Positions 22,675 to 28,306 of a stretch of DNA of 35,008 nucleotides are shown here, in pieces. This stretch comes from Aeromicrobium sp. (GTDB taxonomy: Bacteria; Actinomycetota; Actinomycetes; Propionibacteriales; Nocardioidaceae), in the NCBI GenBank assembly GCA_008017265.1, contig SSHC01000105.1:1-35008 (forward strand), in the 5' to 3' direction. Every line of letters begins with the position of its first letter. The first letter of the stretch is position 1. The translations under genes and the position numbers were made by a program. The notes beneath the pieces are model-generated. The model saw only the letters and a program-made list of their open reading frames with translations, was not told where the DNA came from and made no database searches.

Positions 22675-22695
22675 CACCGCGATAGAAACGCGGTG
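22675..22695 (-). terminator. Hairpin just downstream of the tRNA (weak terminator or processing signal)
   Basis: CACCGCG-atagaaa-CGCGGTG, a perfect 7-bp stem 4 nt past the tRNA 3' end. No T-tract. Confidence 0.35.
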
Positions 22696-22698
22696 TCG

Positions 22699-22771
22699 TG
22701 CTCCCGGCGGGACTCGAACCCGCACTGGGACGGGTTTAAGCCGTCTGCCTCTGCCATTGGGCTACGGGAGC
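22699..22771 (-). tRNA. tRNA with anticodon UAA (nominally Leu), short class-I variable loop
   Basis: Minus strand GCTCCCG TA GCC CAATGGCAGA GGC A GACGG CTTAAAC CCGTC CCAGT GCGGG TTCGAGT CCCGC CGGGAGC A folds into a 73-nt cloverleaf. CCA is not encoded. Confidence 0.9.
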
Positions 22772-22816: not shown

Positions 22817-25345
22817 TCAATCGGCTTTGAGCGATGGCAAAATTTCAAGCTTCGAGGCGCGGACTGCTGGCAGCCAAGCAGCGAACACCCCCACCACGGC
22901 CGCGATGAGGATATAGCCGAACAAGACACTCCACGGAATCACGAGTTCGGTGATGCCCGCATCGGTTTGGCTGCGCTGCACGGCAACTCCCATGATCGTG
23001 CCGGCCAGCACACCGAGCGCGGCTCCCAAGACCGCGATCGCGGCGGCCTCCACTTGAATAAGCAGCCGAACTTGCTTGACGGTCAAACCCATCGCGCGCA
23101 GCATGCCGAGTTCGCGCGTGCGTTCGAACACGGAAAGCCCGAGTGTGTTGGCAATGCCCAAGACTGCGATGACCAACGCGAGTGCCAAAAGTGCTTGAAT
23201 CAAGCCGAGCAAAACCTCGACCGGGGCTCGTTGGGCCGCGGCAAATTCCTCGCGGTCTTCCACGATGACCGCCGGTGCTTCGGCCAGCGCCGCTTCAACG
23301 TTCGGCCGAACTTGGGCGGCGTCGAGCCCCTCGCCGACCGCCGCGTACAGGAATTGATCGTTGGGTTGACCACCCGCTGCGTCGTACAAGCGAAGCGAAC
23401 CGATGTATCGCAGCAAGACGGCAGGGTTCTTGGCATAAATCCCCGAAACAGTGGCTTGGATGGGTGGACCGCCTGCGCTGACTCGAACTCGGTCACCCGC
23501 GTTCAGGCCCTGTTCCTCGGCTCGGTCTTGTTGAACCATCAGTTCGACCTTGCCCGCGCGCGGCAGGCGACCCTCGACGAGATCAAGCGCCACGATCTTG
23601 TTGAACGCTTTTGGGTCCACACCGGCGACTGCGTCTGGTCGCGTTCCGACGAAACCGCCCGAATAGCGCAGCCGGGCAGTCGTTTCGATGCCCTCAACCT
23701 CGCGCACCTTGTGGACGAGTTCGGGCGAAAACGGCGCCCCTACCGGATTGAACACCACGAAATCGCCTTTGAAGTTCTTGGCGATCAGCGTGTCAATGCT
23801 GACCTTCGCTGATTCCCCAAACACCGTCATCATCGACACGAGCGTGACGCCGATAGTGAGGGCGGAAGCCGTTGCGGCAGTACGGCGAGGGTTCCGAAGC
23901 GTGTTGCGGCGCGCCAAGAATCCTACGATCCCAAACGGAATCGTGAAGATCCATTTCGCCGTCCACAAGATGGGCGTCACGATCGACGGTGCCCAAGCGA
24001 TCACGCCAAGCAAGAGCGACAACGCACCGATGCCTAGCGCCGCGATCCGGGCGGCATCCCCGCTCGCGAACCAGAGTGCGATCGCGGCGATGGCCAACAA
24101 GACCGCGCCTGCGCGCAACCGGAAACTGGACGTTTCGGTAACCGGATCCGCCGTGGCACGCATCGCAGTAACCGGCGGAACGGAACTTGCTTTCAACGCT
24201 GGGAAGAGCCCCGAAAGCATCGTGATTCCGATGCCGACGGCGAGCGCGGTCACGATAGTCCACGTTGGCACGATGATCGGCGCGTCACTCAAATCCGGCC
24301 CGAAGAAGCCCGCGCCGTACGACGCGAGACGCGCAAGCACCCAGCCAACAAGGAGACCAATTGTTGAGCCCAACGCTGAGATCAAGAAGGCTTCGATGAG
24401 TACCGATGTGGTCACTTGCCACCGGCTTGCCCCGATCGCTCGCATGAGCGCGAGTTCACGAGTGCGCTGCGACACCAGAATTGAGAACGTGTTCATGATC
24501 AAGAAAGCGCCAACAGCCAACGAGATCACGGCGAAAAGCAAGAGAAATGCGGTCAGGAAGCCAAGGTTCTGTTGCAGCGTGCTCGCGGCTTGGGCAGCCG
24601 CTCGATCACCAGTGAAGGCTCGGGCCGAAGGCGGCAGAACGGCGCCCACCCGGCGCATCAAGTCGGGCTGATCGACGCCCTCGTCAGCAACCACCCACAA
24701 GTCGTGGAAACGCTTTTCACCGTTGAGGAACAGCACGCGAGCGGCGTGCTTGGTGAACATCACAACGCTTCCGCCAGAGGTCGAACTCCCGTAGGTAGCC
24801 AAGCCGACAATCGTGACGGTCAATTGCGGACGCGAACCGTCGGTGGCGACCTTAATTTCATCCCCGATTCCGTAGCCGGTCTTGTCCGCGGTTTTAGGGT
24901 CGATCGTGACTTCGTGGTCCGTTCGCGGCGCCCGGCCAAGCGTGAGCGTCGGCCCCTGGAGTCCACCGGCGGCAGGCGCCTCAAAGAAATTCATGCCGAT
25001 CGCGGGTTGGCCTTGCACTCCAACGGCCACGCCATCTTTGCCAATCACGAATGTGGCTGCCGACCACACTCGGCCGTGCGCTTGGGCCACGCCGTCAACG
25101 TCGCGAACCTTGGCGAGGACGGCTGCCTCAACTGATCCGGTCGGTTCGCCCGAGCCGTCATCGCCGAAAGAACGCACCATGACATCGGCGACTCGACTGC
25201 TCGTTGTGCCGAGTAGTGCACGGTCTAACGTCGAGACGAAGATGAGCGATCCAGAGACGAATGCGACACCGAGAACGATGGCGAGGAAGCTCATGAAAAG
25301 GCGCTCAGGACGCAGTTTGACATTGCGCCATGCCACACGAAGCAC
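22817..25345 (-). CDS. ABC transporter permease, FtsX/MacB-like with two FtsX domains
   Basis: 842 aa. FtsX-like repeats SQRTRELALMRAIGASRWQVTTSVLIEAFLISALGSTIGLLVG and FERTRELGMLRAMGLTVKQVRLLIQVEAAAIAVLGAALGVLAG. GTG start after GGAG. Confidence 0.93.
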   Translation of the reverse strand: MLRVAWRNVKLRPERLFMSFLAIVLGVAFVSGSLIFVSTLDRALLGTTSSRVADVMVRSFGDDGSGEPTGSVEAAVLAKVRDVDGVAQAHGRVWSAATFVIGKDGVAVGVQGQPAIGMNFFEAPAAGGLQGPTLTLGRAPRTDHEVTIDPKTADKTGYGIGDEIKVATDGSRPQLTVTIVGLATYGSSTSGGSVVMFTKHAARVLFLNGEKRFHDLWVVADEGVDQPDLMRRVGAVLPPSARAFTGDRAAAQAASTLQQNLGFLTAFLLLFAVISLAVGAFLIMNTFSILVSQRTRELALMRAIGASRWQVTTSVLIEAFLISALGSTIGLLVGWVLARLASYGAGFFGPDLSDAPIIVPTWTIVTALAVGIGITMLSGLFPALKASSVPPVTAMRATADPVTETSSFRLRAGAVLLAIAAIALWFASGDAARIAALGIGALSLLLGVIAWAPSIVTPILWTAKWIFTIPFGIVGFLARRNTLRNPRRTAATASALTIGVTLVSMMTVFGESAKVSIDTLIAKNFKGDFVVFNPVGAPFSPELVHKVREVEGIETTARLRYSGGFVGTRPDAVAGVDPKAFNKIVALDLVEGRLPRAGKVELMVQQDRAEEQGLNAGDRVRVSAGGPPIQATVSGIYAKNPAVLLRYIGSLRLYDAAGGQPNDQFLYAAVGEGLDAAQVRPNVEAALAEAPAVIVEDREEFAAAQRAPVEVLLGLIQALLALALVIAVLGIANTLGLSVFERTRELGMLRAMGLTVKQVRLLIQVEAAAIAVLGAALGVLAGTIMGVAVQRSQTDAGITELVIPWSVLFGYILIAAVVGVFAAWLPAVRASKLEILPSLKAD

Positions 25346-25382
25346 GCGTCGTTTCTCCTGTTCAGCGGAATTGCAACTCAGA

Positions 25383-25406
25383 GTTAAGAACTAAGTAGTT
25401 CTTGAC
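25383..25406. promoter_or_regulatory. 24-bp imperfect palindrome, candidate operator
   Basis: GTTAAGAACTA-AG-TAGTTCTTGAC (10 of 11 arm match). AACT-cag-AGTT lies just to its left. Confidence 0.55.
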
Positions 25407-25487
25407 TTTCTAGGTAATTTCTTTTGAAAACGCTACCCACTAACTAGTCCCTTTGGGCTACATTCGACAAAGTTGCACCTGTCTTAA

Positions 25488-26933
25488 ATGACACAAACAC
25501 CAACATTTGGCAGAAAAGAGGTTGCGTATGCAAGCCCATCTTTTACAGCCTCGGGATGTACCGGCGGGCCAACTCACGTGTGGTTCGCGAACAAAGCAAC
25601 GCAACGGGCAGTAGTGTCCGCACCGCTCGATGAACGCCCCCTGACCGCCGACCAGTCGGCCCATATTGACACGATTCCAACGGCGAATCCCGACGGCTCC
25701 GACCCTGCACCGTGGATCGGTTTGTCCTGCCTGATTGAGGGCTCCACACGGTCGTCCATTGCCGAAACGCTTTCCCGCTACGTCGACCGGCACGAGATCA
25801 TGCGATCCATTTTTGATACCGATGAGTTCGATGGCACGGCACGTTCACTATTGCCTATCGGCACCGCTGCGTTCGAGCCGTTGGAGTTGGGCGAACTCAC
25901 CTCCCAAGAGAATTTCAATCGGCTGAGCCGACATCTGGCGCGCGAAGCCCGCTGCACGTCTTGGCCATACGCAGGCTTCGCAACGATCGAAACGAACAAG
26001 GGCACGTTCCTGTTTGCTGCATTCGACCACATGGTGTTCGACGGATACTCGCTTTACATTTCGCTCGACGAATTCCCTCGGCTTCACGCCGGAGTTCTGG
26101 CCGGCGATTCGGCGCCGGCGCCCGCTCTGAGCCACGCTGATTTTGCCCACGTGGAACATAACCTCGCGACCGCCCTCGGCGCCGACTCTCCAGAACTCGC
26201 AACCTGGAAGAACGCACTGAACGAACGTCGCGAACTGCCCGGATTGCCCCGTCAAGCGGGCATCCGCGACGGCGAACGCCATCCGCACGAGTTCATCTCG
26301 ATTCCGCTCCTTGATGGCGCGGAGTCAGCCCAGGTCAAAGAACGATTCCGAGACCGAGACGTTTCGACTGGGTTTGGGTTCCTGTCGGTACTGCTCGGGA
26401 ATGCTGCATCCCTCGAAGCGGACCGGTCCATCAATTTCCTCGTTTCAACTCACAATCGGCCAAGCCCCGCGTGGGGCGAATCGATTGGCTGGTTCGCTGG
26501 TGTCGTACCGATGTCTCTGTGCGTTGCCGAGAATGCGTCTGGGCACGCAACCTATGAAGAGCTCAAAGAACAGTGGCAGGTCAGTCAGTTTGCGAGCGTG
26601 CTGCGCATGCCCGACGCCGCGCGCCGGTTGTCGGCAACGATCGAACCGGCTCTGGTTGTCTCCTATATGGAAGGTCGCCACGCGCCAGGTGCAGAACACT
26701 GGGAAAGGAATCGCGCCAAAGCACTCCTCGGCCCAACACCGCCCAGCAGCCAAATTCACTTGTGGATCAATTCGATGCCCAATGGAACCTTCCTCGAAGT
26801 TCGGTTCCCCAATACGCGTCGCTGCAGAGAGTGGATCCTTTCGATCGCGGCCCAGACACGTGAAACGTTAATTGGCATCGGTACCAGAACTCACGAATTC
26901 GACGAATGCCCTGAGGACATCCCATGCAAATGA
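25488..26933 (+). CDS. Stand-alone condensation-domain (PapA-like) acyltransferase
   Basis: HxxxDG motif in FAAFDHMVFDGYSLYI; GESIGWFAGVVPMS; VVSYMEGRHAPGAEHWERN...IHLWINSMPNGTFLEVRFPNT resembles PapA-type C-terminal regions. Confidence 0.8.
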   Translation: MTQTPTFGRKEVAYASPSFTASGCTGGPTHVWFANKATQRAVVSAPLDERPLTADQSAHIDTIPTANPDGSDPAPWIGLSCLIEGSTRSSIAETLSRYVDRHEIMRSIFDTDEFDGTARSLLPIGTAAFEPLELGELTSQENFNRLSRHLAREARCTSWPYAGFATIETNKGTFLFAAFDHMVFDGYSLYISLDEFPRLHAGVLAGDSAPAPALSHADFAHVEHNLATALGADSPELATWKNALNERRELPGLPRQAGIRDGERHPHEFISIPLLDGAESAQVKERFRDRDVSTGFGFLSVLLGNAASLEADRSINFLVSTHNRPSPAWGESIGWFAGVVPMSLCVAENASGHATYEELKEQWQVSQFASVLRMPDAARRLSATIEPALVVSYMEGRHAPGAEHWERNRAKALLGPTPPSSQIHLWINSMPNGTFLEVRFPNTRRCREWILSIAAQTRETLIGIGTRTHEFDECPEDIPCK

Positions 26934-28306
26934 CCCGACTTGAAGACCACCCCACCACAACGGGAACACTCGTTCGGTGGGTCCCCAGCGCAGTCAGCTT
27001 GCAGGCGATCGAAACGAACACGCCCACAAAACGTCGTGGCTCCTACATGCAAGAAGCTCATCTTGGCTTGCGTAACGCGATGGCTCGCGAAGGAAAGTCC
27101 GATGCGAGTTGGATTGGTCTCTCCTTCGATTTGCCAGCAAACACAGACATGAATTCAATTGCGCACGCGCTCGACAAGCTGGCTGAGCGGCACAGTATTT
27201 TCCGCGGCTGGTTCAGCGGCTCAGACGGTGAATACGCATGGCATGAACTCGCTGAAGGCGAACTGTCATTCGAAACCGAACTGGTTGGCGAAGCACCCAC
27301 CGAGGCTGACGTTAAAAGCTTCGTTTTGAACGAACTCACCACCGCATGCACACCATTTGACACGATCGGCTGGCGCCTATGCGGGGTCATCGGCGAGGAC
27401 AAGATGGTCTTGTACATCGGACAAGACCACATTTACACCGACGGATTCAGCGCCATCTTGATGTTCAGCGAGTTTATTGCGCTGCTCAACGATCCCAACG
27501 CCATCGACACCATGCACCCGGTGGGGGCGTTCCAAGATTTTGCTGAAATTGAACGTGCGGCTGCCGACCTGGCCACGATCGACCATCCTGCGGTCCAGCA
27601 GTGGGCAGCATTCGCGCTCGCCGATCCAGAAGGCGGCACACCCCGATTCCCGATGGACACCGGCATCGCCGTGGGCCAAAAGACCGAACTCGGCCCGTAT
27701 CGCCTCGACCTGTTTACCGCCGAGGAAGATGCTCGACTCGATGCCTACGCGCGTTCCATCGGAGCAACCTTCCCTAGCTTGCTGCACGCGGCACTAGCGA
27801 TTGCTACGCGAGACGTAGCCGGCAAATCGCTTCACCGCTTCCTCAACCCCGTACATACGCGCAATGATCCGCAGTGGTGGTTGTCAATGGGCTGGTACAT
27901 CAACGTGGTGCCCGTGATGGCACAACTGACCGAGACCGACACTCTCGAAAGTGTCGCGGTCACGATGCGAGAGAGCCTGCGCGCGGGTATGGATGTGGCC
28001 GAACTTCCCGCGCTGCGCGTCATGGAACTCATTCAGGAAGTGTTCGGGTTCGATCCCGAAAGCGCAGGTCGCCCGCCGATCATCTCCTACCTCGACGGCC
28101 GCAACCTGCCGGGTCAAGAGATTTGGGACGAGCACCGTTTCCACGGCCTCACCGGCGCCGGAGAACACGACGACGTCAACGTCTGGCTCAACCGTATGCC
28201 TCACGAAACCTACGTTATGTGTGCTGTACCTGATACGGAACAAGCAATGAAAGCGGTCGACGACTACTTCACCTACGCGCGTGACTTGCTGCGCGCCCTC
28301 TTGTGA
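26924..28306 (+). CDS. Second stand-alone condensation-domain (PapA-like) acyltransferase
   Basis: HxxxDG motif in LYIGQDHIYTDGFSAIL; LSMGWYINVVPVM; IISYLDGRNLPGQEIWDEHRFHGL...NVWLNRMPHETYVMCAVPDT. Paralogous to and overlapping the upstream gene. Confidence 0.82.
   Translation: MQMTRLEDHPTTTGTLVRWVPSAVSLQAIETNTPTKRRGSYMQEAHLGLRNAMAREGKSDASWIGLSFDLPANTDMNSIAHALDKLAERHSIFRGWFSGSDGEYAWHELAEGELSFETELVGEAPTEADVKSFVLNELTTACTPFDTIGWRLCGVIGEDKMVLYIGQDHIYTDGFSAILMFSEFIALLNDPNAIDTMHPVGAFQDFAEIERAAADLATIDHPAVQQWAAFALADPEGGTPRFPMDTGIAVGQKTELGPYRLDLFTAEEDARLDAYARSIGATFPSLLHAALAIATRDVAGKSLHRFLNPVHTRNDPQWWLSMGWYINVVPVMAQLTETDTLESVAVTMRESLRAGMDVAELPALRVMELIQEVFGFDPESAGRPPIISYLDGRNLPGQEIWDEHRFHGLTGAGEHDDVNVWLNRMPHETYVMCAVPDTEQAMKAVDDYFTYARDLLRALL

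Follow-up and report, generated by a model that had tools for sequence, protein, structure and literature searches.

Leucine tRNAs with long and short variable arms

The closest described counterparts of the tRNA analysed here are the class II UAA readers leuZ of E. coli and bldA of Streptomyces, the latter being the known UUA-dependent switch (PMC2000904). A 2023 review of tRNA identity considers tRNALeu to be long-armed everywhere but in animal mitochondria. The identity elements of E. coli LeuRS are A73, the A15-U48 Levitt pair, G18G19 and A20a; neither the sequence of the variable arm nor its folding correlates with charging by this enzyme, and arm-less variants stay active (PMC9976931). 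In Mycobacterium tuberculosis, Leu-2, -3 and -5 are reported to have long loops, a wording which hints that its other Leu tRNAs lack them (PMC11541572).

Short variable loops have been described in the animal mitochondrial tRNA-Leu(UUR), which is charged by LeuRS via A73 and A14 (PMC9976931), and, in a passing remark of a further report, in a tRNA-Leu(TAG) of a mobile, horizontally acquired mycobacterial cluster, where it occurs beside a normal class II isoacceptor; the passages in question do not discuss a chromosomal UAA short form (PMC6582537). The allo-tRNAs, another group of atypical bacterial tRNAs of which some have Leu anticodons, are characterized by 12-bp acceptor domains of the 8/4 or 9/3 type (PMC7609411). 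Our literature search, which covered the main texts of openly accessible papers, found no work devoted to a bacterial tRNA-Leu(UAA) of class I.

A class I tRNA-Leu(UAA) gene in Aeromicrobium

The window, meaning the whole 35,008-nucleotide stretch of DNA that was analysed, belongs to an Aeromicrobium MAG of 1.86 Mb in 124 contigs (G000, the window genome). Both ARAGORN and Rfam find a single tRNA in it, a tRNA-Leu(taa), which ARAGORN places at 22698-22771 on the minus strand and which matches the tRNA family RF00005 at 22699-22771 (58.2 bits, E 3e-10, cutoff 29). The gene (22699-22771, minus strand) is 73 nt long, does not encode CCA, and reads from 5' to 3' GCTCCCG TA GCCC AATGGCAGA GGC A GACGG CTTAAAC CCGTC CCAGT GCGGG TTCGAGT CCCGC CGGGAGC A. 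Its anticodon TAA (22736-22738), accompanied by A37, is that of a UAA isoacceptor reading UUA and possibly, by wobble, UUG. The Leu-type D-arm (GCCC-AATGGCAGA-GGC, 22747-22762) has a 3-bp stem and falls in invariant alignment columns that match the motif of the homologues. The variable loop (CCAGT, 22724-22728) has only 5 nt; its position 48 is U, the Levitt partner of A15, and this U, like the discriminator (22699), is shared with the homologues. All members of the LeuRS identity set, A73, A14, A15-U48, G18G19 and A20a, are present. The original prediction had read the anticodon loop, the Leu-like D-arm, A73, the A15-U48 pair and the 5-nt loop as we do, leaving the strand unstated.

The tRNA shares with leuZ and bldA its anticodon, A14, A15-U48, G18G19, the YAGA D-loop, the 3-bp D-stem, A73 and the decoding job. 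It differs from them in the variable region, which is a 5-nt loop in a class I form of 73-74 nt, as opposed to a long arm (at least 10 nt in class II) in tRNAs of 82-88 nt; for this reason it is not a class II UAA tRNA of the bldA type. Furthermore, position 13 of the D-arm is C in the class I form and G in the leuZ/bldA type. With the animal mitochondrial tRNA-Leu(UUR) it has in common the short variable loop and, as a prediction, charging by LeuRS; the mitochondrial tRNA, however, is organellar and structurally floppy, whereas the window tRNA forms a full canonical cloverleaf, and the two are presumably of unrelated origin. The mycobacterial tRNA-Leu(TAG) is likewise short-looped and actinobacterial, but it differs in its anticodon, its mobile setting and its class II companion. 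Finally, the ordinary 7/5 acceptor/T arrangement of the window tRNA sets it apart from the allo-tRNAs.

A hairpin in the 3' trailer (CACCGCG-TTTCTAT-CGCGGTG, 22675-22695, minus strand) is perhaps a processing or termination hairpin; it has no T-run and was not scored as an intrinsic terminator. A scan at the gene recognised neither a promoter nor a T-run terminator.

Upstream, a co-oriented FtsX/MacB-like gene stops 45 nt short of the tRNA, and a CueP-like gene lies downstream. In several congeners (e.g. G005, G006 and G017) the tRNA lies between Ppx/GppA-like and Methyltransf_4 (TrmB-like) genes, and these also flank it in the window, further off and with other genes intervening. Two condensation-domain proteins and a MacB/FtsX-like permease (22817-28306) separate the tRNA from the Ppx/GppA gene; since the latter is found near the tRNA in several congeners, this segment may be an insertion beside it. 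The window genome is an unusually low-GC Aeromicrobium, with 56-60% GC in the stretches read versus 64-73% in congeners, and its use of TTG and CTT is much higher than theirs. One congener, G008, is 100% identical to Aeromicrobium piscarium over 6 kb, which identifies the genus as Aeromicrobium (Propionibacteriales).

Conservation of the cloverleaf and of the leucine identity elements

Of 59 relatives, 44 match the tRNA by sequence, and none of the complete congeners lacks it. Identity is 86-99% within the genus and in family f2, and every locus read there is class I with anticodon TAA. Families f3 and f4 gave a few weaker matches (74-84% identity), among which are class I Leu tRNAs whose anticodon differs (CAA in G049, UAG in G050) and UAA tRNAs whose loop is slightly longer (G042 and G058).

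In an alignment of 22 divergent homologues the cloverleaf is kept in 99.8% of cells, 15 of the 20 pairs show compensatory change, and the covariation score was reached by none of 500 shuffles. This conservation is far from chance. It also outweighs the outcome of single-sequence folding, in which the cloverleaf was not the minimum free energy structure, a common result for unmodified tRNA. Among 148 distinct class I UAA tRNAs none lacks A14, A15, U48 or A73, and 146 have the D-loop motif; most class II Leu tRNAs share these features.

UUA is read as leucine, probably by a sole UAA tRNA

In order to determine how UUA is read, ORFs from 411 kb of the window genome were aligned with their homologues in 20 congeners, G017 among them. 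At 77 conserved UUA sites the homologues carry Leu in 76.5% of cases; in the same test, the other Leu codons gave 73-78% Leu, and the codons for Val, Ile, Phe and Met gave about 4-16%. Scoring of the UUA sites against amino-acid profiles gave a log-likelihood of -87.4 for Leu and of -175.8 for Met, the next best (a gap of 88 log units). UUA is thus read as leucine in the window genome. A smaller test on syntenic 60-kb stretches gave 67% Leu by majority from 21 sites only, a sample too small to be informative. The UUA count proposed in the original prediction, taken over the ORFs with homologues, came to 106 in 41,861 codons (2.5 per 1000). UUA is the rarest Leu codon, falling to 0-0.65 per 1000 in GC-rich congeners. 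Since the UUA codons of the window genome, which has 58-59% GC, lie in ordinary conserved genes, normal growth requires a reader for them. On computational grounds, the window tRNA would be charged with leucine.

The Leu tRNAs of the window genome with anticodons CAA, CAG and UAG are class II, the UAA tRNA being the class I form of the window. A full tRNA listing of the complete relative G017 gave class II Leu tRNAs with anticodons CAA, CAG, UAG and GAG and a sole UAA tRNA, of class I. A loose pattern found no second UAA tRNA in the complete congeners G004, G005, G007, G013 and G018. The search for a second, class II tRNA-Leu(UAA), which had also been proposed, likewise returned none in the genus, as judged by a pattern in the 59 relatives, the loose pattern in the five complete congeners and the G017 listing; class II UAA pattern matches in G000, G009 and G016 (L078-L080) and in G007 (L426) were not tRNAs. 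The window genome is 83.5% complete and a class II UAA tRNA could sit in the missing part, but the complete relatives argue against this. Because no other UAA tRNA came up in the complete relatives, the class I tRNA appears to be a housekeeping UUA reader and not a stress or recoding tRNA, and it is very probably the only UUA reader of the window genome. The gene looks essential and may be described as an ordinary tRNA-Leu(UAA) that happens to have the class I form.

Proposed recognition by LeuRS and alternative explanations

The explanation that we favor, and in which our confidence is high, is that of a functional housekeeping class I tRNA-Leu(UAA), charged by the ordinary LeuRS and acting as the sole UUA reader, which serves in place of the class II form in most sampled Actinomycetes and in some other bacteria. 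It is directly supported by the structure, the conservation, the sole-reader status in complete relatives and the reading of UUA as leucine. LeuRS would recognise A73 together with a tertiary core built by the D-arm, consisting of A14, the A15-U48 Levitt pair, G18G19 positioned by the extra D-loop nucleotides, and A20a. The long variable arm would not be required, since A73 and these core elements would suffice without it, and the short form would take the place of the class II tRNA-Leu(UAA) of the bldA/leuZ type. We infer that the gene is expressed, that LeuRS charges its product, and that replacement, rather than parallel origin, accounts for the short form.

A specialised, low-abundance tRNA of stress or development, limiting a few UUA-containing genes in the manner of bldA, was among the options originally proposed. 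The rarity of UUA lends this idea some appeal and makes a regulatory effect possible in the GC-rich relatives, and bldA itself provides the precedent; nevertheless, a tRNA that is the sole UUA reader, for a codon spread over ordinary conserved genes, must work in growing cells, and we consider such a switch improbable. For Leu a class I form comes as a surprise, which had raised the option that the tRNA is charged with another amino acid, UUA being recoded or ambiguous. Indeed, one non-Leu tRNA of the window genome, the class I tRNA-Lys(CUU), is alone among them in sharing A14, A15, U48, A73 and the D-loop motif; it differs, however, in its 4-bp D-stem and in a D-arm that is one nucleotide shorter. 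The codon test contradicts recoding, as UUA sites align with Leu exactly like other Leu codons, and this option can practically be set aside.

In favor of a pseudo-tRNA or a mobile-element relic, related class I Leu tRNAs occur in phages, plasmids and tRNA arrays and, as noted, the scan gave neither a promoter nor a T-run terminator. Against such a relic stand the retention of the gene in the relatives, its perfect cloverleaf with compensatory changes, where the original prediction had envisaged that the cloverleaf might prove unconserved, and a neighbourhood partly conserved in several congeners (Ppx/GppA on one side, Methyltransf_4 on the other). Retention combined with sole-reader status refutes the relic, which is hardly credible. 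What endures of the options first listed is a class I tRNA-Leu, which A14, A15, U48 and A73 in every homologue and the conservation of UUA sites as Leu support, although the term "divergent" then attached to it is misleading, since class I is the majority form in our Actinomycetes sample. It had also been foreseen that the form might turn out to be annotated and experimentally charged as a standard tRNA in many relatives. The first part holds, as annotation software and many phage records already label the class I form tRNA-Leu, ARAGORN doing so in many relatives; no report of charging was found.

Distribution of the class I and class II forms

A pattern combining the D-arm and the anticodon matched 79 of 397 Actinomycetota genomes, and a reversed control pattern matched none. 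Within the class Actinomycetes, 26 of 38 sampled genomes have only a class I UAA tRNA, 12 only a class II one and none both, as judged by exact-match patterns that could miss divergent class II tRNAs. Class I is the majority form in this sample. The class II carriers are 11 genomes of one Streptomyces-like genus and G263, and the Kribbella-like family f3, of the same order as the window genome, has class II UAA instead of class I; the names Streptomyces and Kribbella are here inferred, partly from GC and tRNA sequence. Among the named carriers of class I are Mycobacterium, Nocardia, Rhodococcus, Gordonia, Corynebacterium, Arthrobacter and relatives, Microbacterium, Amycolatopsis, Streptosporangium and Blastococcus. 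Within the window genome, then, the short-armed tRNA is ordinary; in free-living bacteria, Mycobacterium, Corynebacterium and Nocardia among them, it constitutes a broad exception made by nature, the UUA reader having lost, or never possessed, the long arm. The class I tRNA-Leu(UAA) in effect offers a ready natural experiment on the parts that LeuRS requires.

Class I UAA tRNAs or UAG/CAA relatives also occur in phages of Streptomyces, Gordonia and Mycobacterium and on some plasmids. The Streptomyces phage CeilingFan, for example, has a class I tRNA-Leu(UAA) (L057, 2501-2575), as do about 25 of its relatives (Karimacvirus and others). Every sampled Streptomyces-like host genome has the class II bldA form, and a phage class I tRNA-Leu(UAA) could bypass bldA control of UUA.

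Outside the phylum, the class I form was seen at named loci in MAGs of Rokubacteria, Deltaproteobacteria and Planctomycetota and in cyanobacterial and Chloroflexaceae tRNA arrays. We suggest tentatively, and at somewhat less than even likelihood, that a distinct class I tRNA-Leu lineage spread across bacteria, partly via phages, plasmids and tRNA arrays, displacing the class II tRNA-Leu(UAA) one-for-one in most Actinomycetes, while the class II bldA form persisted in Streptomyces and its relatives. Were this so, the evolvability of a bldA-type UUA switch may depend on which tRNA a lineage has kept, and the claim that short-armed tRNALeu occurs in animal mitochondria alone would be wrong. The tRNA class is worth checking when UUA regulation is compared between Streptomyces and other actinobacteria.

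Motif matches without a tRNA (L261, L273, L290, L297, L302 and L324 among them) were discarded. In a Rokubacteria MAG, the order Gly(GCC)-Cys(GCA)-Leu(UAA) (L277, 384-670) is that of E. coli glyW-cysT-leuZ, the last slot being occupied by a class I tRNA in the MAG and by the class II leuZ in E. coli. The same MAG has a second Gly-Cys pair followed by a class II UAA tRNA that is cut by the contig end (L414, 1202-1546), for which contamination is possible. Within the order of the window genome, G050 has a class I tRNA-Leu(UAG), and G049 has a class II UAA tRNA together with a class I tRNA-Leu(CAA) (L395 and L396). Finally, the arrays of cyanobacteria and of a Chloroflexaceae MAG (L317, L330 and L298) contain short class I Leu tRNAs with several anticodons.
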